NCBI GenBank assembly: GCA_016209865.1
Contig: JACQVL010000340.1
Location: 1-23,890, forward strand
Direction: 5' to 3'
DNA from: Candidatus Latescibacterota bacterium
GTDB taxonomy: Bacteria; JAAXHH01; JACQVL01
Length of the DNA: 23,890 nucleotides
The translations under genes were made by a program, and so were the position numbers. Below are positions 5,616-23,706 of the stretch, in pieces; position 1 is the stretch's first letter; each line of letters opens with the position of its first letter. The notes beneath the pieces are model-generated. The model ran no database searches. It saw only the letters and a program-made list of their open reading frames with translations, and was not told the origin of the DNA.

Positions 5616-8600
5616 TCATGGGGTTTGTTCTTGCGGGATCTCCGACAGTGTCCGGAAGTACGCCCGGATGAGGTCCTCGTACTCCTTCGGGTACATCCCA
5701 TCGCGGAGCGCCCGGAGTAGGTCGTCTCGCAGGGGTTGATTCTGTTCCATCAGGCTGGCCGGGAGGTCCTTTGGTGAGGGCCGGCTCACCACGTCCTCAC
5801 CCGGCTTCGACTGCCGCTTCTCGTCGTAATCGCGTTCACGAAGCGAGCGCTGTGCGTCGAGGAGCCGGGACAGGATGCGCTGCTGGCGGTCGATCAGCCG
5901 GGGGTCGGCGTGTTGTTGCTGGAGCGACTGGACGGATTCCTTCATCTCCCGCTCGATCTCGCTCAGCCGGCCCAAGACGTCAGAGCGCTGTCCCATCTCG
6001 CGCTGGAGCTGTTCGAGACTCTTGCGAAGCGCCTCCTGCTCCGCCGCCAGCCGGGCGATCGTCGCCCGCTCCTCCATCGTCATCTGGTCCCCGGTCCGTC
6101 CCTGTCCCTGCTGCATCATCTGGTTCAACTGCTCGTTGACTCCCGACTGTTGCTGGGCCATGGCTTGCAGTTGGGCGAGCATTTCCATCAGGCCGGTGGC
6201 GGACCCGGCCGCGTTCAGGTCGTCCATCGCCTGTCGGAGCGCCAGGACAGCCCGGTTTAGGGCCCGCATCGCCTCCCCCTGCTGCTGGGAAGCCGTCGCC
6301 CGGTTCCGCTGCTCTAACCCGGTGCTTGCCGCCTGCATGCGCGACAGGCCTTCGCCCAGCGCCTGGCCGGCCTGGGGGGAGACGAAGAAGCTCTTCTGCG
6401 CCGTCTGGAGAAGCTGATCCGCCACCCTCGACGCGCCCTTGAGGAGACTCTGCTGTTCCTCAGCCAACTCTTGCAGTCTGGCCGCCCGGCTGTCTGATTG
6501 AGCCGTCCTGGATCGCAGCGTCTCCTCTCCTTGCGACAGGTCGAGCAGGTCGTGCATCGCCCGGCGCATTTCCCCGGCGATTTCTTGCTTCTGTCCCGCC
6601 TGCATCTGCGCTTGCGCCCGTTGGAGCCGTCGCGCCATCTCGGATAAATCCTGTTCCACCTCTTGCTGTCCCTGCACCGCCTGGCCCATCTGCCCGGCCG
6701 CTAACTGCTGGCTGATCCGGCCCATCTTCTGCGGCATGCGCTGCCGCTGGATGGATTCCATCGTCTCGCGGACCTCATCGGCTGGCAGGTTCGACTGCTG
6801 CTCCTCCATCGTCTTCGCCAGGTCGGACAGTTCCTGCTCCATCCCTTCGGTGTCGCGCTGCAGGGCCGATTCTTTCTCGGCCAGATTCTTCGCGGCCTGC
6901 GCAGCCTGCTGCTCCGCGTTCTGGGTGGCGTACCGGATCTCTTCCTGGCGCCTGGCCAGCTCTTCCGCTTTCTTGACCGCCGCGTCCATCTTCTGCTCGG
7001 CCTGGAGCCGTTTTAAGATCGACAGCGTCCGCTCCAGACGCTTCATGAAGTCTTCCTGGGCGATCTTGAAATCCTTGACCGCCTGGGTGAGCTTCTGCTT
7101 GTCGAGGCCCTCCATCGACTTCTTGAGGTCTTGCATCGCCTTCCGCAGCTCCGGCGTGACGATTTCCTGGAGCAGCTTCTGGAGTTGGGCCATCTTCTCC
7201 AGCAACTGCAGGCTGCTCATGTCGTGCTGTTCGAGCTGCCCGGTCATACTCTCTAACGATTCGGCCACTTTCTTCAAGTCTTCAGCCATCTCCTGCTGCC
7301 TGGTCATGAGCGATTCGACATCTTTCTTCTTCTCCCAGGACAGGTCACGTTCCTGACCCGGCTCAGGCTTCTTCGCCAGGTCGCGCGCGAGGTCTTCCAA
7401 TTTCGCCTTCACCTGTTTCTGTTCTTTGAGCATCTCTTCCAGACTCGTGATCTGCTCTGCCTGATTCGTCTCCATCTGCTTGTACATCTCCACCATCGAA
7501 GGGAACCGGACGGTGTACGTCTGACTCACTCCGCGTTTTGGACCGGAGACCGTATCGTTATCGTACACCTCAACGTAATACGTCACCGCGTCCTCAGGGA
7601 GCAGGCCGCTGTTGGACAGATCCCAGACGTACGGCTGGGAGAGGGTCGTCGTCTGCGGCTCAGCGATGGCGATGGGTTTGCGCTGTTCGTGGCCGTCTGC
7701 GCCAACCCGGTAGACAAGACGGAGCGCGGAGAAGCCGAAATCATCGGTGGCGGTGAGCATCAGCGGCACCATCATGTTCTCAGTCAGGTTCGTGTCCTGG
7801 CCGGGCGAGACGATCTGGACGTCGGGGGAGCGGTCGGGGATCACGCTGATCCGGTATTCAGGCGGGTCGACATTCGCCCGTCCTTCACGGTCGGTCAACT
7901 CGACCCGGTACCGGTCGTCCTTCCGGACCTGGAGGGTCGTGACGGCGGAGCGTCCGTTCACCGTCATCGGAATCCCGGCCGGGCGGAAGTCGCCGGCCAG
8001 TACCAGGCGGGCAGACGCGAGGGGACGGCTCGTTTCAACCGCGAGTGCGACGGACGTCCCTTTGAGCGCGATGATATCCCCCGTCCCATCGGCGGTCGTC
8101 CGGGGCGCCAGGCGGGTGTAAGCCGGGTACCGGTAGGTGAGATGGAGGGCGGTGATCACCGGGCGGTCGATGACGGTGAGAGTGAACGGCCGGCTGGTCG
8201 CGTCGCCCGCGTTGATGGTGTAAGCCAGGGTCTGCCGGATGTCCCGGATGGTGTAGAAGAATTCTGCGGGGGACCGTTTCGTCAGCGGAGTCTTCCGCCA
8301 TGCCCGCCCTTCCTCCCGCATCACAGAGATCATCCCCTCATCCGGCATCTCGCCGGTCACCGCGACCGTGACCGTCACGTCACTGCCCTTCGAGACGGTC
8401 GCGTCGCCCGGTAAGACGGCGATCATCGTCCGCGGGGGAACCGGGTAGTCGATGAACGGATGCGACAGACGGACGAGGGAGGCGGAAAGCGGGCGGAACA
8501 GACTGATGATGAGGATCATGACGACGAGCACGGTGCCGCCGAGGACAGACGCGGCACGGGTGATCCGCCAGGCCGCCGCGGCGACGCTGAACTCGACGGC

Positions 8601-9038
8601 GTGCGCCGCCTGGACGGATTCGACGATGGCCGCATCGATCAGGACGGGGGAATACCGGGACTGATTGTCCTGACGCTGCCGCCAGAGCTGGAGGGCCATC
8701 GTCACCCGGTCGTTGAGGTCTGGGTAGTGCTGTTCGACTCGGCATGCCAGGGCCTCGTCGGTCGGAGTCCGGATCAACGAGCGTCCGCATCCCCAGGCGA
8801 ACGCGGCGAGCACGACGAGCCCGCTGACGAGCAGCATCCCCTGCCGTCCGGCGGGGGACAGGCGAAAGACGGCCTCGACCGAGAGCGCCGCCACGGCGAC
8901 GACACAGAGCGCCGCCAGTCCCAGCAACGCTCCCTGGATGAGCGTCACGCGCCGATCCTGCGCCCGCAGCGCGTCAAGACGCCGGACGAGGTCATCTCTG
9001 GCCGCGCTGGGAGAGAGGGAAAAGACTGGCAAAGCCAA
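5616..9038 (-). CDS. DUF4175-like large membrane protein with long coiled coil
   Basis: A 1140-residue protein. Three hydrophobic segments (about 33-57, 67-88 and 162-182) anchor it in the inner membrane, with ACRVEQHYPDLNDRV (98-112) resembling the soluble loop of DUF4175 proteins. Residues 200-510 look like Ig-type beta domains and are probably periplasmic. From about 515 to 1060 the sequence is almost continuous Gln/Glu/Lys/Arg/Leu heptads, a long coiled coil, followed by a charged tail. The start is TTG at 9038, chosen because AAGGAG lies six bases upstream and no ATG fits. The function of the family is not known; relatives often sit with MoxR/DUF58/VWA genes, which are absent here. It lies mid-operon between an exported nucleotidase-like protein and an SGNH hydrolase, so an envelope role is inferred. 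Confidence 0.8.
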   Translation of the reverse strand: MALPVFSLSPSAARDDLVRRLDALRAQDRRVTLIQGALLGLAALCVVAVAALSVEAVFRLSPAGRQGMLLVSGLVVLAAFAWGCGRSLIRTPTDEALACRVEQHYPDLNDRVTMALQLWRQRQDNQSRYSPVLIDAAIVESVQAAHAVEFSVAAAAWRITRAASVLGGTVLVVMILIISLFRPLSASLVRLSHPFIDYPVPPRTMIAVLPGDATVSKGSDVTVTVAVTGEMPDEGMISVMREEGRAWRKTPLTKRSPAEFFYTIRDIRQTLAYTINAGDATSRPFTLTVIDRPVITALHLTYRYPAYTRLAPRTTADGTGDIIALKGTSVALAVETSRPLASARLVLAGDFRPAGIPMTVNGRSAVTTLQVRKDDRYRVELTDREGRANVDPPEYRISVIPDRSPDVQIVSPGQDTNLTENMMVPLMLTATDDFGFSALRLVYRVGADGHEQRKPIAIAEPQTTTLSQPYVWDLSNSGLLPEDAVTYYVEVYDNDTVSGPKRGVSQTYTVRFPSMVEMYKQMETNQAEQITSLEEMLKEQKQVKAKLEDLARDLAKKPEPGQERDLSWEKKKDVESLMTRQQEMAEDLKKVAESLESMTGQLEQHDMSSLQLLEKMAQLQKLLQEIVTPELRKAMQDLKKSMEGLDKQKLTQAVKDFKIAQEDFMKRLERTLSILKRLQAEQKMDAAVKKAEELARRQEEIRYATQNAEQQAAQAAKNLAEKESALQRDTEGMEQELSDLAKTMEEQQSNLPADEVRETMESIQRQRMPQKMGRISQQLAAGQMGQAVQGQQEVEQDLSEMARRLQRAQAQMQAGQKQEIAGEMRRAMHDLLDLSQGEETLRSRTAQSDSRAARLQELAEEQQSLLKGASRVADQLLQTAQKSFFVSPQAGQALGEGLSRMQAASTGLEQRNRATASQQQGEAMRALNRAVLALRQAMDDLNAAGSATGLMEMLAQLQAMAQQQSGVNEQLNQMMQQGQGRTGDQMTMEERATIARLAAEQEALRKSLEQLQREMGQRSDVLGRLSEIEREMKESVQSLQQQHADPRLIDRQQRILSRLLDAQRSLRERDYDEKRQSKPGEDVVSRPSPKDLPASLMEQNQPLRDDLLRALRDGMYPKEYEDLIRAYFRTLSEIPQEQTP

Positions 9039-11398: not shown

Positions 11399-13024
11399 TT
11401 ACTTCGCGTTCACGAGCAGCGAATGTGTGGTAAACAGCTTCAGCCCTTCTTGAAGCTGCACGTCCCCCCGGACTGCGACTTTGTAGCCTTCCTCCTCTCC
11501 CCACAGGTTGCTGGCGATGGCGCGCTTCAACTGGAGCTTGACGTAATCCGCGTCGGCCTGGAAATCGTTCTCCGTAAACGTGACCCCCTGTTTCTTCATT
11601 TGATCTTTAAACCCTTTCAACATCTCATCGTCGACGACAAACGATGTCAGAAAGGTGGTAAAGTCTTTCTTCAGGTCACGATGGGTGGCGGCGTAATGGG
11701 TGGCAAACTCGAAGAAGGCGCGCCCACGCAATTTCGAGGCGAACGGGTAGGCCCGTTTCGGCGACTTAACGGTCACGTCCGGCATGATCCCTCCGCCGCC
11801 GTAGACCGTTCGACCCAGATTCCTCGTTTTAAAGGTCGGAGCGTTCTGCGCGCTATCCGCCTCAGCCGGGGTATTCTCCCCGGTCCTGTTGAGGGGTTCA
11901 TCGCCATCCTCAAACGCCTCGTCGATATAATCGCGCCAATTTTTCCCCTTGTACTCACGCTGGATGAGCCGTCCGCTCGGCGTGTAATACTTCGCGGTGG
12001 TGAGCTTGAGTGCCGACCCGTCGCGGAGGTACGGTTCCGTGAAGAGGGATTGCACCAGGCCTTTCCCGAAGCTCCGGGTCCCGACGATCAGGCCGCGGTC
12101 CCAATCCTGAATCGCCCCGGCCACGATCTCCGAAGCGCTCGCCGTCTGATGGTCGATGAGGACGATCAGGGGATAGGGAGGATGGGCGGCCGACTCGGTG
12201 GCGACATACTCCTGGTTCGAGGTGCGCGTGCGGCCGCGGGTTGAGACGATCACCTTGCCCCCGTTGATGAATTTGTTCGTCACCTCCACCGCCTGGTCGA
12301 GGTAGCCGCCGGAATTCTGGCGCAGGTCGAGCACCAACCGCTTCATCCCCTGCCCTTCGAGCTTATTCAGAGCATCTTCAAGGTCCTGGGAGGTCGTCTT
12401 CGCAAACCGGCGTAGCTGGATGTAGCCCGTCTGGGTATCGAGCATGAACGCCGCTTTAATGCTCCGGATTGGGACCCGGTTCCGGGTAATCGTCAGGTTG
12501 ACCGGGTCCGACTCTCCCTCGCGCTCGATCGTGACTAAGACTTTCGTCCCTTTCTCCCCCCGGAGCTTCGCCCGAACCTCGTCCTCTTTGATCCCGATCG
12601 AGGATTCCCCGTTAATCTTGGTGATCCGATCGCCTGGACGCAGTCCGACCTCTTCGGACGGCGACCCTTCGATGACCGCGATCACGGTGAGGTACTCGTT
12701 GATGATGTCGAATTCGATCCCGATCCCGGAGAACTGACCGCTGAAATCCTCCGACATCTGGGTGAAGCTTTCCTTACTCAAGAAATTCGAATGAGGATCG
12801 AGCGACCGGAGCATCCCATCGATCGCCCCATAGATGAGTTCTCCGGGGTCGACTTTCTCGACATAGTTGGCATCGACCAGCTTAAGCACCTGGGAAAACA
12901 GCCCGATCTTCTGGTAGATGTCATCGACGGCGTACCCTTCGTGCGTCGTCAGGCTCCCGAGCATGAAGGCAACGACGGCGACCCCGATGAGGGAGAGGAC
13001 GAAATGGGGTTTTTTCATGAACAT
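11399..13024 (-). CDS. S41 family C-terminal processing peptidase
   Basis: A carboxy-terminal processing protease acting in the periplasm. It has 541 residues with an N-terminal signal anchor (about 7-25), a helical segment, a PDZ domain at about 95-180 (FSGIGIEFD, GSPSEEVGLRPGDRITKING) and the S41 core with LDLRQNSGGYLDQAV (232-246). The Ser/Lys dyad is intact: Ser298 in TASASEIVAGA and Lys321 in SFGKGLVQ. About 150 C-terminal residues extend past the core, as in many bacterial CtpA/CtpB proteins. Of two close ATGs the first (13024) is preferred because GGAGG lies nine bases upstream. It is the first gene of the leftward operon, about 200 bases downstream of a strong promoter. A 125-bp palindromic element lies within its probable untranslated leader. 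Confidence 0.93.
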   Translation of the reverse strand: MFMKKPHFVLSLIGVAVVAFMLGSLTTHEGYAVDDIYQKIGLFSQVLKLVDANYVEKVDPGELIYGAIDGMLRSLDPHSNFLSKESFTQMSEDFSGQFSGIGIEFDIINEYLTVIAVIEGSPSEEVGLRPGDRITKINGESSIGIKEDEVRAKLRGEKGTKVLVTIEREGESDPVNLTITRNRVPIRSIKAAFMLDTQTGYIQLRRFAKTTSQDLEDALNKLEGQGMKRLVLDLRQNSGGYLDQAVEVTNKFINGGKVIVSTRGRTRTSNQEYVATESAAHPPYPLIVLIDHQTASASEIVAGAIQDWDRGLIVGTRSFGKGLVQSLFTEPYLRDGSALKLTTAKYYTPSGRLIQREYKGKNWRDYIDEAFEDGDEPLNRTGENTPAEADSAQNAPTFKTRNLGRTVYGGGGIMPDVTVKSPKRAYPFASKLRGRAFFEFATHYAATHRDLKKDFTTFLTSFVVDDEMLKGFKDQMKKQGVTFTENDFQADADYVKLQLKRAIASNLWGEEEGYKVAVRGDVQLQEGLKLFTTHSLLVNAK

Positions 13025-13093: not shown

Positions 13094-13218
13094 CTAATGA
13101 ATTTTGACGACCCAAATCGGTAAAAACCTGTAGGGGCGAATCTTGTATTCGCCCCGATGCGGGCGATCACAAGGATCGCCCCTACGGATGACCTGTTTTG
13201 ATCATCAAATCTCATTAG
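13094..13218 (-). repeat. 125-bp MITE/REP-like element, copy 1
   Basis: The copy begins CTAATGA and ends TCATTAG, so its ends are inverted repeats, and the outer 40 bases of each side are imperfect inverted copies. The centre holds two stem-loops: GGGGCGAAT with ATTCGCCCC (13133-13155, loop CTTGT) and GGGCGATC with GATCGCCC (13161-13181, loop ACAAG). The copy at 20241-20365 is the reverse complement with four differences in 125. No transposase is nearby. It lies between the minus-strand promoter and the S41 peptidase start, hence probably in that mRNA leader. Confidence 0.9.
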
Positions 13219-13348: not shown

Positions 13349-13475
13349 TTTCCATCATACAATCGCACCCGCCCAGGAAGAATGACGGGCGTCACGCCCG
13401 ACAGAGAGTCTTTTTCAGAGTTAAACGCGAATTGATCGAGAAAAGTTTCATCCCTTCATCAACAGAGAGGTTGCC

Positions 13476-15900: not shown

Positions 15901-17016
15901 ATGAGCCGCTCTATCCGCAATCCGCAATCCGCAATCCGCAATCTCCTTGTCGTCCGGACGGATCGGATGGGGGACGTCCTGCTGTCGACTCCGGTCCTGA
16001 GCGGGCTGCGGGCGCGATTTCCGGACAGCCGGATGACGATGCTGGTCAGCCCGTACGCGCGCGAGGTGGTGGACGGCCACCCGGCGCTCGACGAGGTGCT
16101 GGTCGATGACGAGGGGGAGCGGCATCGTGGCCTGGCCGGGTTCATCCGGCTCGTCCGGACGATCAGGCAGCAACGGTTTGACGCGATCGTCATCCTGCAC
16201 CCGACGCTCCGGCTGGCTCTGTTAGGACTCTTAGCGGGCATCCCGGTACGGGTCGGGAGCGGGTATCGCGCCTACGGCCTCCTGTTCAACCGGCGGGTGT
16301 ACGAGCACCGGAAGGATGCGCGCCGACATGAGGTCGAGTACAATCTCCGGGTGGCCGCGGCGTTAGGCGTCGCTGACGTGCCCATCCCGCCCACTATCGT
16401 CATCCCGGACGCGGCTCGCCAGGCCATCGCCCGCTGGCTGGACGCCGGAGGTATCGGACCGGACGAGCCGTTCGTCGTGCTCCATCCGGGAAGCGGCGGC
16501 TCCGCACGCAGTTGGCCGGCGTCGTCGTTCGCCGCGCTCGGGTCTCGGCTCATCGACGAGGGCGGCGTCCGGGTGGTGTTGACTGGCGGCCCGCATGAGC
16601 GGGAACTGATCGAGTCCGTCGTCGGGCAGATGCAAACCCGGCCGCTGACCGCCGCCGGAGAGTTGACGATTAAAGAACTGGCCGCCCTCCTCGCTGGCTG
16701 CCAGCTCTGTGTGACGAACAGCACCGGCCCGCTGCATCTGGCCGCGGCCGTCGGAACCCCGACGGTCGCCCTGTTCTGTCCGATCATCCCCTGCAGCCCT
16801 GTCAGATGGGGACCGTACGGAGAAGGGCACCGGGTGCTCATGCCGGATGTCCCCGCCTGTCCCCGCTGTATCGGCACGGCCTGCGAGTACTTCGATTGTA
16901 TGACGCGCATCAGCGTCGATGCGGTCTATCGAGCGACGCGAGAAATTCTGGAAGGCATGAAGCGCCGAGGTGACGTCTGTGAACCGTTCGCATCTTCCGC
17001 TCATCGTACAGAGTGA
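15901..17016 (+). CDS. Glycosyltransferase family 9 (heptosyltransferase-like)
   Basis: A 371-residue GT-B enzyme of the ADP-heptose:LPS heptosyltransferase family, which adds heptose or related sugars to the lipopolysaccharide core at the inner membrane. LVVRTDRMGDVLLSTPVL gives the N-terminal acceptor-domain motif. VVLHPGSGGSARSWPASSF and CVTNSTGPLHLAAAVGTPTVALF give the nucleotide-sugar motifs. A C-terminal CPRCIGTACEYFDCM cluster has four Cys. ATG 15901 is chosen because AGGAG lies five bases upstream; the ATG at 15898 is in frame but too close, and one at 15868 overlaps tsaC. Codons 5-15 are encoded by an ATCCGCA tandem repeat, giving a low-complexity N-terminus (RNPQSAIRNPQ). The 3' end overlaps the helicase start. 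Confidence 0.87.
   Translation: MSRSIRNPQSAIRNLLVVRTDRMGDVLLSTPVLSGLRARFPDSRMTMLVSPYAREVVDGHPALDEVLVDDEGERHRGLAGFIRLVRTIRQQRFDAIVILHPTLRLALLGLLAGIPVRVGSGYRAYGLLFNRRVYEHRKDARRHEVEYNLRVAAALGVADVPIPPTIVIPDAARQAIARWLDAGGIGPDEPFVVLHPGSGGSARSWPASSFAALGSRLIDEGGVRVVLTGGPHERELIESVVGQMQTRPLTAAGELTIKELAALLAGCQLCVTNSTGPLHLAAAVGTPTVALFCPIIPCSPVRWGPYGEGHRVLMPDVPACPRCIGTACEYFDCMTRISVDAVYRATREILEGMKRRGDVCEPFASSAHRTE
15913..15943 (+). repeat. Heptanucleotide tandem repeat ATCCGCA inside the GT9 coding start
   Basis: There are four exact ATCCGCA units plus ATC. The unit length is not a multiple of three, so gain or loss of one unit between the ATG and the catalytic domain would shift the frame. No in-frame start codon is seen after the repeat before the MGD motif. 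Confidence 0.9.
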
Positions 17017-18679
17017 CCGGACCGTCTTGCTGGCGGTCGATCATCCGCTGTACGAAGAGGCCCGGGACGAGCTCGCCCGGTTTGCCGAGCTCGAGAAATC
17101 CCCTGAGCATATCCACACGTACCGGATCACCCCCCTCTCCCTCTGGAACGCGGCGGCGGCCGGCCTGAACGCATCCGCCATCGTCGAGACGCTCGACCGG
17201 CTGAGCAAGTATGAAATCCCACAAAATATCCAGCGGGACATCGTCGAATTCATCGCCCGGTACGGCCAGGTCCGGCTGACGAAGCCGGATGACCGCCTCA
17301 TCCTCGAATCCGATGACCCCGCCCTCATCGCGGAGATCGCCGGCCAGCGGTCGGTCAAGCCCTTCCTCGTCGGCCCGGTCGATGAATACCGCCTGCACGT
17401 CGGGGGGCGGTATCGCGGCCACGTCAAACAGGCGCTGATCAAACTCGGCTTCCCGGTCGAAGACCTGGCCGGGTATGTGACCGGCGCGCCGCTCGACCTC
17501 GTCCTGCTCGCCCTCACTCGATCTGAACGGCCGTTCCGGCTGCGGGAATACCAGGTCACCGCCGCCAACGCTTTCCATGTCGACGGCGGGCCGCGCGGCG
17601 GGAGCGGGGTCATCGTCCTGCCGTGCGGGGCGGGAAAGACGATGGTCGGGATGAGCGTGATGGCCACCTTGCGGTGCCAGACGCTGATCCTGACCGCCAA
17701 TACGGTCGCCCTCCGGCAGTGGCGGGATGAGTTGCTCGACAAGACGTCGTTGACGTCCGATCAGATCGGGGAGTACTCCGGGGAACAGAAGGTCATCCGA
17801 CCGGTCACTCTGGCCACGTACCAGATCCTCACCTACCGGAAGAGCAAAGACGAGGACTTCGAACACTTCGGGCTGTTCAACCGGGAGGACTGGGGCCTGA
17901 TCATCTACGACGAAGTCCACCTCCTGCCCGCGCCGGTGTTCAGGATCACGTCAGAGATTCAGGCGCGGCGGCGGCTCGGCCTGACCGCCACCCTCATCCG
18001 CGAGGATGGCCGTGAAGGGGATGTCTTCAGCCTGATCGGCCCGAAACGCTACGACATGCCCTGGAAGACGCTCGAGCGGCAGGGCTGGATCGCGACCGCG
18101 GAATGCCGGGAAATCCGGGTGAACCTGCCAGATGAACTGCGGATGCCATACGCCCTCGCCGGCTCACGGGAAAAGTTCAGGCTCGCGTCGGAGAACCCGA
18201 CGAAATTCGCCGTCGTCCGCGCCCTGCTGGCCCGCCACCCGGACGACCTGATCCTCATCATCGGCCAGTACCTGAAGCAACTCAAACAACTCGCCCGCGA
18301 GATCGACACGCCGCTCATCACGGGGAGCACTCCCGTCCAGGAGCGGCTGCGCCTGTACGCCCAGTTCCGGGCCGGGGAGATCACCCGGCTCGTCGTCTCA
18401 AAAGTCGCCAACTTCGCCATCGACCTTCCTGACGCCAACGTGGCCATCCAGATCTCCGGGACGTTCGGCTCCCGTCAGGAAGAGGCCCAGCGACTCGGCC
18501 GTATCCTGAGGCCGAAGCGGGACGGGGGGCCCGCGACGTTCTACTCGATCATTACGCGAAACACCCTGGACCAGGATTACGCGGTCAATCGCCAGCTCTT
18601 CTTGACAGAGCAGGGATATGAGTATACGATTCATGATGCGACGGAGGTTGTGAAAGAATCGGTGGTCGGTGGTCGGTAG
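16979..18679 (+). CDS. XPB/Rad25-type DNA helicase (superfamily 2)
   Basis: A bacterial XPB helicase, a 3'-5' DNA translocase proposed to act in repair or transcription. Residue numbers count from GTG 16979, which is preferred over GTG 16970 because GAGGTGA lies six bases upstream. Residues 5-125 form the N-terminal domain of bacterial XPB (TYRITPLSLWNAAAAGL, SKYEIPQNIQRDI). Residues 130-185 match the damage-recognition-like region (EYRLHVGGRYRGHVKQALIK). The helicase core has Walker A CGAGKT (216-221), the DEVH box (311-314), LTATLIRED with the RED motif (341-343), and a QRLGRILRP motif VI near 500. It overlaps the GT9 gene by 38 bases. Its last residues and TAG stop come from a TCGGTGG repeat, so the C-terminal tail is not conserved sequence. 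The Bax1 partner nuclease known in archaea is not adjacent. Confidence 0.93.
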   Translation: MNRSHLPLIVQSDRTVLLAVDHPLYEEARDELARFAELEKSPEHIHTYRITPLSLWNAAAAGLNASAIVETLDRLSKYEIPQNIQRDIVEFIARYGQVRLTKPDDRLILESDDPALIAEIAGQRSVKPFLVGPVDEYRLHVGGRYRGHVKQALIKLGFPVEDLAGYVTGAPLDLVLLALTRSERPFRLREYQVTAANAFHVDGGPRGGSGVIVLPCGAGKTMVGMSVMATLRCQTLILTANTVALRQWRDELLDKTSLTSDQIGEYSGEQKVIRPVTLATYQILTYRKSKDEDFEHFGLFNREDWGLIIYDEVHLLPAPVFRITSEIQARRRLGLTATLIREDGREGDVFSLIGPKRYDMPWKTLERQGWIATAECREIRVNLPDELRMPYALAGSREKFRLASENPTKFAVVRALLARHPDDLILIIGQYLKQLKQLAREIDTPLITGSTPVQERLRLYAQFRAGEITRLVVSKVANFAIDLPDANVAIQISGTFGSRQEEAQRLGRILRPKRDGGPATFYSIITRNTLDQDYAVNRQLFLTEQGYEYTIHDATEVVKESVVGGR

Positions 18680-18705: not shown

Positions 18706-18733
18706 GGAACTTTTTCCCCCCTTCCTCGTGTAA
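18706..18733 (+). promoter_or_regulatory. SigmaE (ECF)-type promoter in front of the ECF sigma gene
   Basis: GGAACTT (18706-18712) is followed after exactly 15 bases by GTGTAA (18728-18733). This matches the layout of RpoE/AlgU-dependent promoters (GGAACTT, 15-17 bases, then TCTAA- or TCTGA-like). Transcription would begin about 18740, just before the GAGGAGG ribosome site at 18741-18747. The position predicts positive autoregulation by the sigma factor that follows. Confidence 0.7.
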
Positions 18734-18757
18734 CTTACGTGAGGAGGACGACACACG

Positions 18758-19393
18758 ATGCTCAGGTCTGTGCAGACATCCGACACGACATCGGCACTCA
18801 CCGCGCCGGACGAGTGGCTGTTCAATCAAGTCCAGCGAGGGCATACCGAGGCCTTCGACGCGATCGTCAACCGGTACCGGGACCGGCTGTTCAACTGTAT
18901 CATCCGGCTCGTTCGCCAGACCGAGTGTGCGGAAGACCTGGTCCAGGAAACCTTTCTCCGAGTCTACCGGAGCCGAAACGAGTACCAGGCTACCACCCAT
19001 TTCTCGACGTGGATCTACACGATCGCGCTCAACCTGGCGCGGAGCGAACTCCGCAAACGAAAGCGGCGCCGGTTTTTTTCCATCAATACCGATCCAGACG
19101 ACGACCAGGGGGAGCGGCCTGAACTCTCCGACCCCGCTGGCGGACCGGACGATCAGTTGCACCACTCCGAACTCGGCCGGTCGATCCAGCGAGCGATCGG
19201 TCAGTTGCCCATCAAGTACCGGACCGTCATCGTGCTCAGGGATATCGAAGAACTCTCGTACGAACAGATCAGCGAGGTCCTCCAGTGCCCGACGGGAACG
19301 ATCAAGTCGCGGGTCAACCGGGCCCGCCTGAAGTTGCAGGAAAAGTTGCGATACTGGCAGGATGACCGTGGATTCCCGCTCTCGCGGGCATGA
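18758..19393 (+). CDS. ECF RNA polymerase sigma factor, RpoE-like
   Basis: A 211-residue group IV sigma factor. Region 2 covers about residues 25-95 (QRGHTEAFDAIVNRYRDRLF, CAEDLVQETFLRVYRSR, THFSTWIYTIALNLARSEL). After a linker rich in Asp, region 4 covers about 145-205 (LPIKYRTVIVLRDIEELSYE, CPTGTIKSRVNRARLKLQEK). There is no extra C-terminal domain. ATG 18758 follows GAGGAGG at about ten bases. The next gene encodes a zinc-finger anti-sigma protein and the one after that an HtrA-family protein, the order seen in algU/mucA/mucD-type envelope-stress loci. The sigma is therefore probably held at the membrane until an envelope signal releases it. The GGAACTT promoter upstream fits this family. 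Confidence 0.95.
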   Translation: MLRSVQTSDTTSALTAPDEWLFNQVQRGHTEAFDAIVNRYRDRLFNCIIRLVRQTECAEDLVQETFLRVYRSRNEYQATTHFSTWIYTIALNLARSELRKRKRRRFFSINTDPDDDQGERPELSDPAGGPDDQLHHSELGRSIQRAIGQLPIKYRTVIVLRDIEELSYEQISEVLQCPTGTIKSRVNRARLKLQEKLRYWQDDRGFPLSRA

Positions 19394-19406
19394 CGACCGT
19401 TTTTCT

Positions 19407-19434
19407 CGTCACTCGCCACTCGTCACTTGTCACT
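19407..19434 (+). repeat. Heptanucleotide tandem repeat CGTCACT
   Basis: The four units read CGTCACT, CGCCACT, CGTCACT and TGTCACT. The stretch lies in the 83-base gap between the sigma and anti-sigma genes. A closely related array with three units is at 23776-23796. Confidence 0.85.
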
Positions 19435-19441
19435 GATTCTT

Positions 19442-19459
19442 ACCGACCACCGACCACCG
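19442..19459 (+). repeat. Heptanucleotide repeat ACCGACC (inverse complement of the 18659 array)
   Basis: ACCGACC occurs twice and is followed by ACCG. Its reverse complement matches the TCGGTGG array at 18659-18684, so the sigma factor gene is flanked by inverted copies about 780 bases apart. Confidence 0.8.
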
Positions 19460-19476
19460 TTTGAAGGATATTCACC

Positions 19477-20244
19477 GTGCAGTGCCGCGATTTTGAGCCT
19501 TTCTTCTCACAGTACATCGACGGGGAATTGGAGCGGAACCAGTTCGAATCGATCCGATTCCATCTGAGCGGCTGTCCCCGATGTCACCTCATCCTGGAGG
19601 AGATGCAGCAGGCGGTGAACGCGGTTCAGGGGTTGCCCCGTCTGGCCCCGAGGCCGGAATTCGCGGAAGCCCTCCGCCAGCGCCTCCATCAGGAGATCAC
19701 GCAGGACCTCTACCAGCGGCCGGAGTGGACACGCTGGGCCGAAGGGCTGACCGAATTCTGGCGGGCCGGGCTCCAGCGCTCCCCCCAGATCGCCGTCGCG
19801 TTCATCCTGGTTGTTGCCGTAGGCGTGGGGATGTTCATCTTCCAGAGCGGCCCGCCGGCCGGCCGGGTGAACGAAACCCTGAACACCCAACGGCCGGCTC
19901 CATCGTTCGGCCAGACACTGACTGTTTCCGCACGTGAAGAACGGGCACAGGCCGAGCGTTCCGGGTCTGCGTCTCGACCGCTGTCACGCCTGGCCTTATC
20001 CTCCCCGGCGCGCCAGGATCGGCGCGCTCCACAGCCGGAGCGCGCTGAGTTTGCCGCCCCGCCAGATAGCGCCGCGTTGTTCCTGGCTTCCACCCCCCCA
20101 GACCCCCATTGGGTGCTTCCCCAGGCGTCAGGCGATGGGGTGGCATCGGCCAGGGGATCGATCGTCGATGGCCGGAGGGAGACGATGCATTATCTCTTGC
20201 CGACGATCCCCTCCCGTCCCCGTTTCAGCCGGGTTGCGTTCTAA
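19477..20244 (+). CDS. Anti-sigma factor with zinc-finger (zf-HC2) domain, membrane-spanning
   Basis: A 255-residue single-pass inner-membrane protein. The N-terminal cytoplasmic domain has the zinc-binding anti-sigma signature: Cys3 near the start, YIDGELERNQFESIRFHLSG, and His29, Cys33 and Cys36 in the HxxxCxxC spacing. A hydrophobic span lies at about 104-123 (QIAVAFILVVAVGVGMFIF). The remaining 130 residues are Pro/Ala/Arg-rich and predicted periplasmic, without a known domain. The start is GTG 19477 with GAAGGA eight bases upstream. By family it binds the ECF sigma factor encoded just before it. The TAA stop lies inside the first bases (CTAATGA) of the 125-bp repeat, so insertion of the element may have changed the C-terminus. 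How the signal is received is unknown; the HtrA-like neighbour is a candidate. Confidence 0.88.
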   Translation: MQCRDFEPFFSQYIDGELERNQFESIRFHLSGCPRCHLILEEMQQAVNAVQGLPRLAPRPEFAEALRQRLHQEITQDLYQRPEWTRWAEGLTEFWRAGLQRSPQIAVAFILVVAVGVGMFIFQSGPPAGRVNETLNTQRPAPSFGQTLTVSAREERAQAERSGSASRPLSRLALSSPARQDRRAPQPERAEFAAPPDSAALFLASTPPDPHWVLPQASGDGVASARGSIVDGRRETMHYLLPTIPSRPRFSRVAF

Positions 20245-20365
20245 TGAGATTTGATAATCAAAACAGGTCATCCGTAGGGGCGATCCTTGTGATCGCCCGC
20301 ATCGGGGCGAATACAAGATTCGCCCCTACAGGTCTTTACCGATTTTGGTCGTCAAAATTCATAAG
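20241..20365 (+). repeat. 125-bp MITE/REP-like element, copy 2
   Basis: It matches the reverse complement of copy 1 (13094-13218) at 121 of 125 bases, including both internal stem-loops. It fills the gap between the anti-sigma and HtrA-like genes: its first bases supply the TAA stop upstream, and its end (ATAAG) abuts the AAGGG ribosome-binding site of the next gene. Relative to the downstream gene it has the same orientation as copy 1. Confidence 0.9.
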
Positions 20366-20377
20366 GGCGTGATCGTG

Positions 20378-21670
20378 ATGGAGAGGACGTGCCTTTTGTC
20401 GAAGATGAACCCCCGAACGCTTCGTCTCCTCACGCTGCTCAACTTAGCTGTCTTCGCGTTCCTCCTCTTCCCTGTGACAGAGGCCTCAGGCCAGACGTCG
20501 ACTCCAACCTTGACCGCCATCGAGCAGGAAGTGGTCGGACTGGTCGAGCGGGTGCAGACCTCGATCGTCAGCATCGTTGCTCAACGGCGTTTCATGATCC
20601 CGGTCGATGGGCACATCCTCACCACGTGGGACCGGGATGTCGGCTCTGGGATCGTCATCAGCCCGTCTGGGCACATCCTGACTACGGCGAGTGTTGTCAA
20701 GGGCGCGAATGCGTTGAGTCTCAGCCTCGCAGACGGACGCCAACAGCCGGCTCGATTGGTCGGGGTCGACCCGCTCTCCTCGATCGCGGTCGTCCAGGCG
20801 GACAGCGCGGGCCTCCTCCCGGCGGGCCTTGGCGACTCGGACAGCATCCGTGCAGGAACCTGGGCGATCATGATCGGCAATGCGTTCGGCCTGCCGTCGT
20901 CCCCGTCGTTCGGACTGGTGAACGGGGTTCGTTCGGAGGATGGGCTGCTCCAGATCAACGCGATGGCCAGTCCAGGCTCGACCGGCGGGGCGGTTGTCGC
21001 CTCAGATGGCCGGGTCATCGGCCTGATCGTGGGAAAGCTGACGGTGCTCCCAGACTTTCCTGCAATCTTTCATTCCCCGAATCAGGCTGGGACGTTCTGG
21101 ACCGCGGAGGGCCCGTTTTCCGGGGCTCTCCTGGCCATTCCGATGAACCGGGCTCTGACGATCGCTCGCCAACTGATCGAGTTTGGGGAGGTACGCCGGA
21201 GTTGGCTGGGGGTTGAGATCGAGAGCCTGGCGGGAAGAGAGGGAGGAGTCCCGATCGATCACGTCTACGAAGGGAGCCCTGCCCAGGCGGCTGGCCTCCG
21301 CAAGGGAGATATCCTGCTTTCGGTCAACGGGCTTCCGACCACCAGCCCGTTCGCGCTGGCGGATCGTGTGGCGAACATCCCGGTCGGGACGGAAGTGGAA
21401 CTCCAGTACATTCGAAACAGCCACCAGGAGGTCAAGCGGGTGCGGCTCGGCCAGCGACCGGCTCTCCTCGACCGGCGACAGGGCGATGAAGCGAGAGAAG
21501 AGGTCAGGCCCGTGGAAGCGGGCCCCAACGGTCCCAAGCCGGTCTTAACGGAAAAATCCCTCACCCAATGGCTGCTGGAGCTGCAGGCGGAGATTCAACG
21601 GCTGAAGAATCTTGAAGGAGAGCGACAGAACGAGCAGATGCGACGCGTGAAGGCGCAACCACGCCGGTAG
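20378..21670 (+). CDS. HtrA/DegP-family PDZ protein with a lost catalytic triad (pseudoprotease)
   Basis: A 430-residue exported protein; numbers count from ATG 20378, chosen because AAGGG lies ten bases upstream and a signal peptide follows (LLTLLNLAVFAFLLFPVTEA, about 17-36). The trypsin-like domain aligns with HtrA throughout: GSGIVISPSGHILTTASVV, LVGVDPLSSIAVVQ, LGDSDSIRAG, IGNAFGLP and SPGSTGGAV. All three catalytic positions are changed: TNAHVV is TTASVV (His to Ser105), DPLSDIAV is DPLSSIAV (Asp to Ser135) and GNSGG is GSTGG (Ser to Thr202). One PDZ domain follows (about 275-355, SWLGVEIESL, GSPAQAAGLRKGDILLSVNG), then a short coiled-coil tail. Proteolysis is therefore unlikely. Its place after a sigma/anti-sigma pair, where MucD/DegP often sits, suggests a periplasmic sensor, chaperone or anti-sigma partner; this is inference. 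An alternative in-frame ATG is at 20405. Confidence 0.88.
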   Translation: MERTCLLSKMNPRTLRLLTLLNLAVFAFLLFPVTEASGQTSTPTLTAIEQEVVGLVERVQTSIVSIVAQRRFMIPVDGHILTTWDRDVGSGIVISPSGHILTTASVVKGANALSLSLADGRQQPARLVGVDPLSSIAVVQADSAGLLPAGLGDSDSIRAGTWAIMIGNAFGLPSSPSFGLVNGVRSEDGLLQINAMASPGSTGGAVVASDGRVIGLIVGKLTVLPDFPAIFHSPNQAGTFWTAEGPFSGALLAIPMNRALTIARQLIEFGEVRRSWLGVEIESLAGREGGVPIDHVYEGSPAQAAGLRKGDILLSVNGLPTTSPFALADRVANIPVGTEVELQYIRNSHQEVKRVRLGQRPALLDRRQGDEAREEVRPVEAGPNGPKPVLTEKSLTQWLLELQAEIQRLKNLEGERQNEQMRRVKAQPRR

Positions 21671-21684
21671 GCGGAGGAAATCCT

Positions 21685-22311
21685 ATGAACCTTGACCTCA
21701 TCCAGCGTCCGTTTCCGTCCGATCAGATTAGACGGCGCAAGACCGCCCTGGGGACGACCCTCGACTATCTTGAGACCCACACCGTTATCGCCCGGCTGAA
21801 CGAGACGTTCGGCGGCCTGTGGAGTTTCAAGATTCTCGATCACAAACTGCTGGAGGACGACGTGGTCGTCCTGGGGGAGCTGACGGCGGAAGGAGTGACG
21901 AAGCAGCAGTTCGGCACGTGCGAGCTCCGTCAGGAAGGGGATGAGGGCGTCGTCCTGTCGATGGGAGATGCCTTGAAAGCGGCCGCCTCGGATGCCTTGA
22001 AGAAAGCCGCCACCCTGTTCGGAATCGGCTTACACCTCTACCACTCCGCAGAGTCCGCGCCCGTCTCGCCGCCAGAGGCCGCCTTGCCCGAGCCCACGCC
22101 AGAACCGGAGCCCGAACCGGCCCCCGAGCCGGGTCCCCCGCCCGATTTGATTACCGACTTCCAGGTCGCCGAGATCATTGAATTAGCCAAACAGCGGAAG
22201 ATCACCCAGGCCCAGGTGGAACGCCGTGCCCGCGAGCGGTATGGCCGGGGGCTGGCCGAGTTGACCCAGGCCGAAGCCCAGGAGATCATCACCAAGCTCC
22301 GGCCGCGGTGA
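21685..22311 (+). CDS. Rad52/Rad22-like single-strand annealing protein
   Basis: A 208-residue protein. Residues 10-120 match the Rad52/22 family: TLDYLETHTVIARLNETFGG, then LWSFKI, and GDALKAAASDALKKAATLFG (94-113), the conserved end of the annealing domain. A Pro/Glu linker (about 127-153) made of PEP repeats joins a small helical C-terminal domain (155-205, ending LTQAEAQEIITKL), as found in phage Rad52-type recombinases. It would anneal complementary single strands and may load on SSB-coated DNA. Start ATG 21685 has GGAGG seven bases upstream and is 14 bases after the HtrA-like gene, so it is probably co-transcribed. No phage structural gene is near. Rad52-like genes in bacteria are mostly phage-derived, so transfer is possible. 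Confidence 0.83.
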   Translation: MNLDLIQRPFPSDQIRRRKTALGTTLDYLETHTVIARLNETFGGLWSFKILDHKLLEDDVVVLGELTAEGVTKQQFGTCELRQEGDEGVVLSMGDALKAAASDALKKAATLFGIGLHLYHSAESAPVSPPEAALPEPTPEPEPEPAPEPGPPPDLITDFQVAEIIELAKQRKITQAQVERRARERYGRGLAELTQAEAQEIITKLRPR

Positions 22312-22332: not shown

Positions 22333-23706
22333 TTATTCCCCGACCTGTGCCAGCGCCCGTCGTGCAAACGCGATGAACGCCTCGACATCCTGCTGGGTAT
22401 CGTACGAGATGATCCCGTCGGGCGGCAGGACGAGGGTCATCAGCGCCTGCCTGTGCGGTTCTGCCCCGGTTCCCGTCCAGACCGTCCATCCGGATGCGGG
22501 GTCCACACGGTGAGGCACGAACAGCACCCCGCCGACCACGGTGGCGCACACGGATGAACCGCCGAACTGGTACAGATACCCCATCATCTTGTAGAAGGCC
22601 GCGCCGTAACTGCTGACCATGTATTGCTTCGCATCCCCGATGAGGACACGACTGGTCTTCGGGTTTCTGATGATGAAATCTGGAACCCCGGCCAGTTGCT
22701 GCAGATACCGGTGCTCCTGAATCGGGTGCGACGTCTGGACGAACATCTCCCACGTCTCCCCGTTGCGAAACCGGCACTCGAACGCCGGCAGACCGGAGAC
22801 CCGTCCCGTCCCGAAGACCGCCCCGCGCTGCCGGACGATCCCGTGATGGCTCAACCGGACGAGGAGTTCGAGCAGGACGAGCAACTCGTACGCCCGGTCG
22901 GGGGAAATCGGACGGAACGGCGCCGAGAACGCGGGGCCGAAGGATGCGAGGTCAAGCTGCCCGTACTGCTCCCGCCATGCGAGGAGCGCCTGATACCCCC
23001 CATGCGTCCGCCTGGCCCGCTCGATCCGAGACCGGGCCAGCCCTTCCAGGCGGTTCTCTTCCGTCTGCGCGCGCTCCCCTCTGAGCAGTCCCTTCGCGTC
23101 CGCGATGAGGCTGGAGAAGGGCGTGGGGCGCAGCGCTTGGCGGCATGTCCAGATGATCTCCTGAATCTTCCGTCGCTCCTGGTCGTGCAGAGCCGGGCCA
23201 ACGGCCGGATGATGGAGTACGCCGCGCGCGTCATCGATGACACGAACGAGCGTCAGGACGGTCAACAGGTTTTCGGGCGTCTTAAAATCCTTGATCGGAC
23301 GGCAGACGACGAAATCGGACAGCAGGGGGGAGGCGGCGACGAGGAAGTTTGCCCGGAGCGTGCGTCCCCAGTCGAGCGCGCCCCGGACGTGATAGCGGTG
23401 GGTCTCTGACGCCCGATCCGGGGTGAACGTGATACGGCGACGAATCCGGGGGAGGATGCCATCCGTCAGGACGGCGACGAGCGTCTCCAGCTTCAGGAGC
23501 CGGCGAAAGCGTTCGGCGAACTGAAGGGCAGGATGGGCGTCGAACGTCACCGTCAACGCTTCGTCGAGGTAGCCGCGCTCGAACAGCCCGATGACGAGCT
23601 GGACGATTCGGGTCTGCATCGTCTTCACGCTCGCGAGCGCGACGTGTTCAGACAGGTCCGTGTCGGTGATCTGGAAGCAGGCAGGAATTCTGTTCTTGTC
23701 AGGCAT
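22333..23706 (-). CDS. PD-(D/E)XK nuclease, McrC/DUF2357-like
   Basis: A 457-residue protein. The nuclease signature is VPDFIIRNPK (Asp343) followed by VLIGDAKQY (Asp358, Lys360), and then YKMMGYLYQFG, the helix with Tyr and Gln often found after the lysine in this superfamily. Upstream, FKTPENLLTVLTL (141-153) resembles the TPEN/R motif of McrC and DUF2357 proteins. In type IV restriction such proteins work with an McrB-like AAA+ GTPase. No such partner is in the window, but one could lie beyond the right edge, as that gene is transcribed in the same direction. It is convergent with the Rad52-like gene, with 21 bases between stops. ATG 23706 has only a weak ribosome site. The family assignment beyond the nuclease fold is moderate. 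Confidence 0.75.
   Translation of the reverse strand: MPDKNRIPACFQITDTDLSEHVALASVKTMQTRIVQLVIGLFERGYLDEALTVTFDAHPALQFAERFRRLLKLETLVAVLTDGILPRIRRRITFTPDRASETHRYHVRGALDWGRTLRANFLVAASPLLSDFVVCRPIKDFKTPENLLTVLTLVRVIDDARGVLHHPAVGPALHDQERRKIQEIIWTCRQALRPTPFSSLIADAKGLLRGERAQTEENRLEGLARSRIERARRTHGGYQALLAWREQYGQLDLASFGPAFSAPFRPISPDRAYELLVLLELLVRLSHHGIVRQRGAVFGTGRVSGLPAFECRFRNGETWEMFVQTSHPIQEHRYLQQLAGVPDFIIRNPKTSRVLIGDAKQYMVSSYGAAFYKMMGYLYQFGGSSVCATVVGGVLFVPHRVDPASGWTVWTGTGAEPHRQALMTLVLPPDGIISYDTQQDVEAFIAFARRALAQVGE

Follow-up and report, generated by a model that had tools for sequence, protein, structure and literature searches.

Among described envelope-stress regulators, the AlgU-MucA-MucB-AlgW and RpoE-RseA-RseB-DegS systems come closest to the locus reported here, sharing with it an extracytoplasmic function (ECF) sigma factor, a membrane anti-sigma factor, an HtrA fold with a single PDZ domain, an M50 protease encoded in the genome, and a likely signal in the form of C-terminal peptides of outer membrane proteins (OMPs). 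The presence of an HtrA gene in or near a sigma/anti-sigma operon also has precedents: MucD is encoded in the algU operon, and the SigE-RseA-HtrA group of Mycobacterium tuberculosis (HtrA being Rv1223) likewise combines HtrA with sigma and anti-sigma factors, with both MucD and Rv1223 being regarded as active proteases. The locus described herein is located in a 23,890-nucleotide stretch of DNA from Candidatus Latescibacterota bacterium (contig JACQVL010000340.1; the whole stretch is hereafter referred to as the window) and encodes, on the plus strand, a SigW/RpoE-like ECF sigma factor of 211 amino acids (18758-19393), a zf-HC2 anti-sigma factor (19477-20244), and a 430-amino-acid HtrA-family protein (20378-21670). 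The RpoE/AlgU-like layout proposed in an earlier note on this DNA holds, the three open reading frames (ORFs) being in place and the start of the proposed module, position 18706, coinciding with an ECF-type promoter. Unlike MucD and Rv1223, however, the HtrA-like protein lacks the catalytic triad, and unlike in the AlgU and RpoE systems, it also appears to be soluble, the anti-sigma factor belongs to the zf-HC2 type and has an OMP-like C-terminus, and the operon contains no RseB/MucB gene, the rest of the genome not having been searched for RseB. The HtrA-like protein is an old, retained pseudoprotease under purifying selection.

The HtrA identity of this protein exceeds chance: profile searches detect a Trypsin_2 domain (E = 7e-23) followed by one PDZ domain (21194-21448; PDZ_6 and PDZ_2 matches), phmmer matches it to a DegP-like protease (1.9e-36), and the sequence aligns with those of DegP, DegQ, AlgW, and DegS. 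The protein comprises a putative signal peptide, a trypsin-like domain, the PDZ domain, and a C-terminal helix; its N-terminus is hydrophobic, with a conserved A-x-A/G-Q-like end that reads as a cleavable signal peptide. A first structure model, built from orthologs alone, was poor (predicted local distance difference test, pLDDT, of 56), and the fold match of the final model rests partly on active paralogs, because their addition to the alignment raised the pLDDT to 80.8. The top fold matches of this model are AlgW with a decapeptide, Deg1, DegS, DegQ, and MucD (Z scores of 29.5-30), with Rv1223 also among the matches, and the NCBIfam matches to MamO and MamE are far under the cut-off. A conserved charged helix following the PDZ domain (residues 392-426; 21655-21551) lies outside the structural matches to other HtrAs.

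All three catalytic residues are replaced in the window protein: His by Ser105 (TTASVV; 20690-20692), Asp by Ser135 (DPLSSIAV; 20780-20782), and Ser by Thr202 (SPGSTGG; 20981-20983), all on the plus strand. Another 13 genomes of the phylum encode orthologs (36%-47% identity; the G014 copy is split over two contigs), and none of the 14 proteins has the catalytic His, the position being occupied by Gly in the 13 orthologs and by Ser in the window. Of the 14 sequences, 9 have D, 3 have N, and 2 have S at the Asp position, and 10 have S and 4 have T at the Ser position; the NPGNSGG loop is replaced in the whole clade, whereas all 20 aligned paralogs, 19 from the phylum and 1 from outside it, keep H-D-S. 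The claim of the earlier note that every catalytic residue had been lost is therefore correct for the window and G014, the only two genomes in which this is the case, but does not extend to the clade, for which the loss of all three residues as a shared trait was rejected. Judging from the alignment, the founding change of the clade is the loss of His, the sole triad loss found throughout. With the trypsin-like domain and PDZ of the HtrA/Deg family but without its His-Asp-Ser triad, the protein is a family pseudoprotease by descent, not an HtrA protease; lacking the triad, it is not a DegS/AlgW protease either, and cleavage of the anti-sigma factor by it is not expected.

The phylum sample consisted of 16 genomes from one order, in which the window genome, a fragmented assembly that is 83% complete, is the sole member of its family and the relatives are metagenome assemblies labeled Latescibacterota, Gemmatimonadetes, or Zixiibacteriota. 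A single-protein scan of the genome contigs gave no match, and an alignment-based search recovered these relatives. The inactive copies form a single clade (support 100/100) that spans 14 genomes from four genera and two families; the gene was not seen in G007 and G015, where the contigs carrying the sigma gene end before its position. Within genus g3, the ratio of nonsynonymous to synonymous substitution rates (dN/dS) is 0.19 for the dead HtrA versus 0.175 for an active DegP-type paralog, and by part of the protein it amounts to 0.13 in the trypsin-like domain, 0.22 in the PDZ domain, and 0.91 in the loop insert. The fragmented, incomplete window assembly is what one might cite in favor of neutral decay of the triad, or an error of sequencing or assembly, confined to one genome, but the probability of this explanation is negligible: the loss recurs in all 14 genomes, under purifying selection and in an open frame, so that both a recent pseudogene and an assembly error were rejected, and no relative keeps H-D-S in this gene, which rules out recent decay in a single strain. 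Two further expectations of the earlier note were borne out, namely, selection for a nonproteolytic role, which is supported by the monophyly of the dead copies, purifying selection, and a fixed neighborhood in each assembled locus, and the clustering of the dead copies as a clade beside zf-HC2 anti-sigma and ECF genes, with conserved neighborhood.

Magnetosome HtrA pseudoproteases, MamO among them, likewise have a degenerate triad and an altered oxyanion loop and are kept beside active paralogs (PMC4794232). MamO differs in that it binds metal and activates MamE in magnetosomes, whereas the gene considered here belongs with a sigma/anti-sigma pair; no search for magnetosome genes was made. 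Given that MamO, a dead HtrA, activates MamE-dependent proteolysis (PMC4794232), the pseudoprotease could be a partner of an active HtrA that tunes the cutting of the anti-sigma factor, through either mixed trimers or allosteric activation, and the constrained trypsin-like domain would suit an oligomer interface. Mixed trimers are, however, less likely because a large distance (~30% identity) separates the dead clade from the active paralogs, and partnership of this kind would leave the conserved tail of the anti-sigma factor, described next, unexplained; we consider it improbable.

The anti-sigma factor (zf-HC2, E = 7e-7) has one predicted transmembrane segment, read from the sequence at residues ~105-122, and a disordered-looking periplasmic part. 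Its orthologs align over residues ~1-128 only (tblastn), the zinc domain and membrane segment being conserved and the periplasmic part being divergent (133-178 amino acids; dN/dS of 0.44). The last residues nevertheless read R(-3)-[V/I](-2)-[A/S](-1)-F(0) in 14 of 14 genomes: RFSRVAF, followed directly by the stop codon, in the window (20221-20241, plus strand) and KRVRISF, KRIRISF, RRVRISF, and KRVTRVSF in relatives. None of 1e6 random segment sets drawn from the same regions in the four genera reached the similarity seen over the final four or six residues, and among the other zf-HC2 proteins of four genomes, none was found to end in Phe. The tail resembles an OMP C-terminus because barrels of the same genomes often end likewise (VNF, VTF, VRF, QIF): a terminal F was read at 26 of 46 beta-barrel OMP loci, where the ORF was chosen by length and some ends are wrong, with ends including GGRVNF, GVEVTF, GVGVNF, GMAVRF, and LGQIF. 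This conserved tail, a putative PDZ ligand, is the strongest clue to the function of the system, and its sequence suggests a competing PDZ ligand more naturally than simple OMP sensing. Only 6-10 bases separate the anti-sigma stop from the HtrA start in 12 of the 13 relatives, an arrangement that would allow the tail to be constrained at the DNA level, as part of the HtrA translation start region, rather than as a protein ligand. We consider this very improbable, since the Arg, Val, and Ile codons vary synonymously while the residues stay fixed, and the window retains the tail despite a gap of ~130 bases to the next gene.

The proposed reader of the tail can be compared with AlgW, in which W281, L282, and V284 form the pocket for the last Phe of the ligand, E285 restricts the size of the -1 residue and touches -3R of the MucE ligand SVRDELRWVF, K287 contacts -5E of the ligand, and R279 couples the domains (PMC8545111). 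The dead PDZ domain carries the residues R274-S-W276-L277-G278-V279-E280-I-E282 (21197-21223, plus strand), whose R-x-W-L-G-V pattern parallels AlgW R279, W281, L282, V284, E285, and K287 (numbering of PMC8545111), and R273, R274, S275, W276, L277, G278, V279, and E282 are invariant across 13 dead-clade sequences. The anti-sigma tail agrees with the AlgW ligand RWVF at -3R, the hydrophobic -2 residue, and 0F, with the -1 residue being small (A/S); the tails from g3 and G001 also carry Arg at -5, opposite the Glu that takes the place of AlgW K287. This correspondence between tail and pocket is a motif register, not a computed complex. By its residue pattern, the dead PDZ domain appears to possess a pocket for a C-terminal x-Phe, as in DegS and AlgW.

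The dead, AlgW-like periplasmic HtrA may be a peptide-binding regulator of the anti-sigma factor in an envelope-stress sigma system, with its PDZ domain capping the tail, the most likely reading, to which we give an even chance. The operon, the lost catalysis, selection, the tail and its OMP likeness, the pocket, the promoters, and the other proteases are all read from sequences; from them we infer how binding, competition, the cutting protease, and the sign of control could fit together. At rest, the ECF sigma factor would be held at the membrane by the anti-sigma factor, with the R-[VI]-[AS]-F tail of the latter residing in, and being shielded by, the PDZ groove of the pseudoprotease. Upon failure of OMP assembly, exposed C-termini of the V-x-F type would compete for the groove and release the tail, following which the anti-sigma factor might be destroyed by an anchored single-PDZ HtrA or an S41 tail-specific peptidase and then by an M50 site-2 protease; the freed sigma factor would activate transcription of its operon and, probably, of the S41 gene. 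RseB/MucB provides a parallel as a proposed periplasmic shield of the anti-sigma factor that remains until a signal displaces it, but has an unrelated fold, and RseB responds to lipopolysaccharide and lipid, whereas peptides are proposed here. It is possible, if somewhat short of an even chance, that the anti-sigma factor bears a built-in mimic of an OMP C-terminus that is read by a coevolved dead protease, such that stress would be sensed through competition between the mimic and OMP ends for the PDZ groove, as by a DegS-like sensor whose catalysis has been passed to other proteases.

Candidates for the cutting step are at hand. The S41 peptidase of the CtpA/CtpB/Prc type encoded on the minus strand of the window (11399-13024; Peptidase_S41, E = 3e-51) contains a PDZ domain (CtpB_N-like match) and the active-site motif HQTASASE. 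The earlier note was right to call it intact, as the TASASE motif attests, and the gene may be coregulated with the operon. It occurs in the same block wherever the contigs of relatives reach, and it is likened to the CtpB/Prc tail-specific S41 proteases; as a candidate for cutting the anti-sigma factor, it is a plausible site-1 protease. Anchored active single-PDZ HtrAs and M50 proteases are also encoded in these genomes, so that a regulated cascade would be possible without catalysis by the HtrA of the operon.

The promoter preceding the operon, TGGAAC-N16-CGTGTAA (18706-18733, plus strand), lies 24 bases upstream of the sigma gene start, and TGRAAC-N16/17-CGTNTAA aligns upstream of the ECF gene in 16 of 16 genomes, 6-24 bases before it. 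The strict motif is present at the operon in all five g3 genomes, with one other match in total, and in all four non-g3 genomes, among 12 matches. Exact matches beyond the operon are few, among them one at a MoxR-like ATPase gene in G001 and one in the window genome at a gene for a TolC-like protein, and no regulon is claimed because they were not above a reversed-pattern control. A second, tentative ECF-like promoter, TGAAAC-N17-CGTTTAA (13421-13450, minus strand), precedes the S41 gene. Compared with the degenerate motif, it is perfect in the window, has one mismatch in G001, and two, with a weaker -10 element, in ten others; in 12 of 12 genomes it is ~310-400 nt from the S41 start, with no shared ORF (hidden leader gene) found in between, and a sigma-70-like TTGACA/TAGTAT is nearer to the gene than the ECF-like element. 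The ECF-like element tentatively suggests that the S41 gene is part of this sigma regulon or of one like it.

The same genes lend themselves to a different explanation, in which the dead HtrA would be a sigma-induced periplasmic holdase chaperone that binds misfolded proteins of the envelope and does not directly contact the anti-sigma factor, the tail serving instead as a tag for the active S41 peptidase or an anchored single-PDZ HtrA. Such proteases exist in these genomes, the S41 peptidase being intact, with its own PDZ domain and a conserved ECF-like promoter in the same synteny block, and the protease domain is under tighter constraint than the PDZ domain, which would agree with a role for the body of the protein. 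Genes in one operon usually act together, however, and the AlgW-type pocket of the dead PDZ fits the tail; we regard the holdase explanation as unlikely, although still deserving serious attention.

Several points weigh against regulation of the anti-sigma factor through capping of its tail by the dead HtrA. The evidence comes entirely from one order of one phylum, its four genera in two families representing few independent lineages; Arg at -3 is absent from most OMP barrels; the position of AlgW E285 is H or Y in the clade, except in the window; and few perfect matches to the promoter motif occur elsewhere. Moreover, the reader of the tail could be another PDZ domain, that of the S41 peptidase or of an anchored HtrA, and control could have the opposite sign, with tail binding recruiting a protease. 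If the capping model is true, peptide sensing and cutting, joined in DegS and AlgW, would be split between separate proteins, and a pseudoprotease would have become fixed as a signaling component of a sigma-factor pathway. It would also provide a recognizable envelope-stress system for uncultured lineages and suggest that anti-sigma factors of other systems be checked for PDZ-ligand mimics at their C-terminal ends. We found no report of a pseudo-HtrA linked to a sigma/anti-sigma pair in the open-access literature, which is weak evidence of absence.

With respect to classification, the operon has the hallmarks of an ECF/zinc anti-sigma system, as judged from sequence features: a sigma factor with Sigma-70 regions 2 and 4 (Sigma70_r2 and r4_2), an adjoining zf-HC2 anti-sigma factor with a transmembrane segment, and a promoter of the autoregulatory type. 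Strict RpoE/AlgU membership, which calls for an RpoE-equivalog sigma factor and RseB/MucB in the operon, does not appear to apply; SigW and RpoE are the top NCBIfam matches of the sigma factor, which is 62%-67% identical to its orthologs, but both fall under the respective equivalog cut-offs. The order XPB-sigma-anti-sigma-HtrA is kept in every genome with long enough contigs among the 13 ortholog-bearing relatives, the XPB helicase gene (16970-18679, plus strand) being the upstream neighbor of the sigma gene. In two relatives, G001 and G014, the locus is flanked by S41-purD-TsaC upstream and Rad52 downstream. The Rad52/22-family gene (21685-22311, plus strand), located directly 3' of the HtrA-like gene in the window, was not found in the fetched flanks of genus g3. 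It is followed in the window by an ORF for 457 amino acids (22333-23706, minus strand) that has no Pfam match and possibly encodes a restriction-like or domain-of-unknown-function protein. An ORF for 1140 amino acids (5616-9038, minus strand) is conserved in relatives, where it too adjoins the S41 gene (34%-44% identity over the parts fetched).

Finally, a palindromic repeat, GTAGGGGCGA...TCGCCCCTAC, is present in two intergenic copies, at 13130-13185 and 20274-20329, with four half-sites in the window versus a chance expectation of 0.03. Other pieces of the window genome carry copies and the loci of relatives have none; the repeat is an element special to the window lineage, resembling repetitive extragenic palindromes or miniature inverted-repeat transposable elements (REP/MITE-like). 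The copy at 20274-20329 widens the intergenic space that separates the anti-sigma gene from the HtrA gene.

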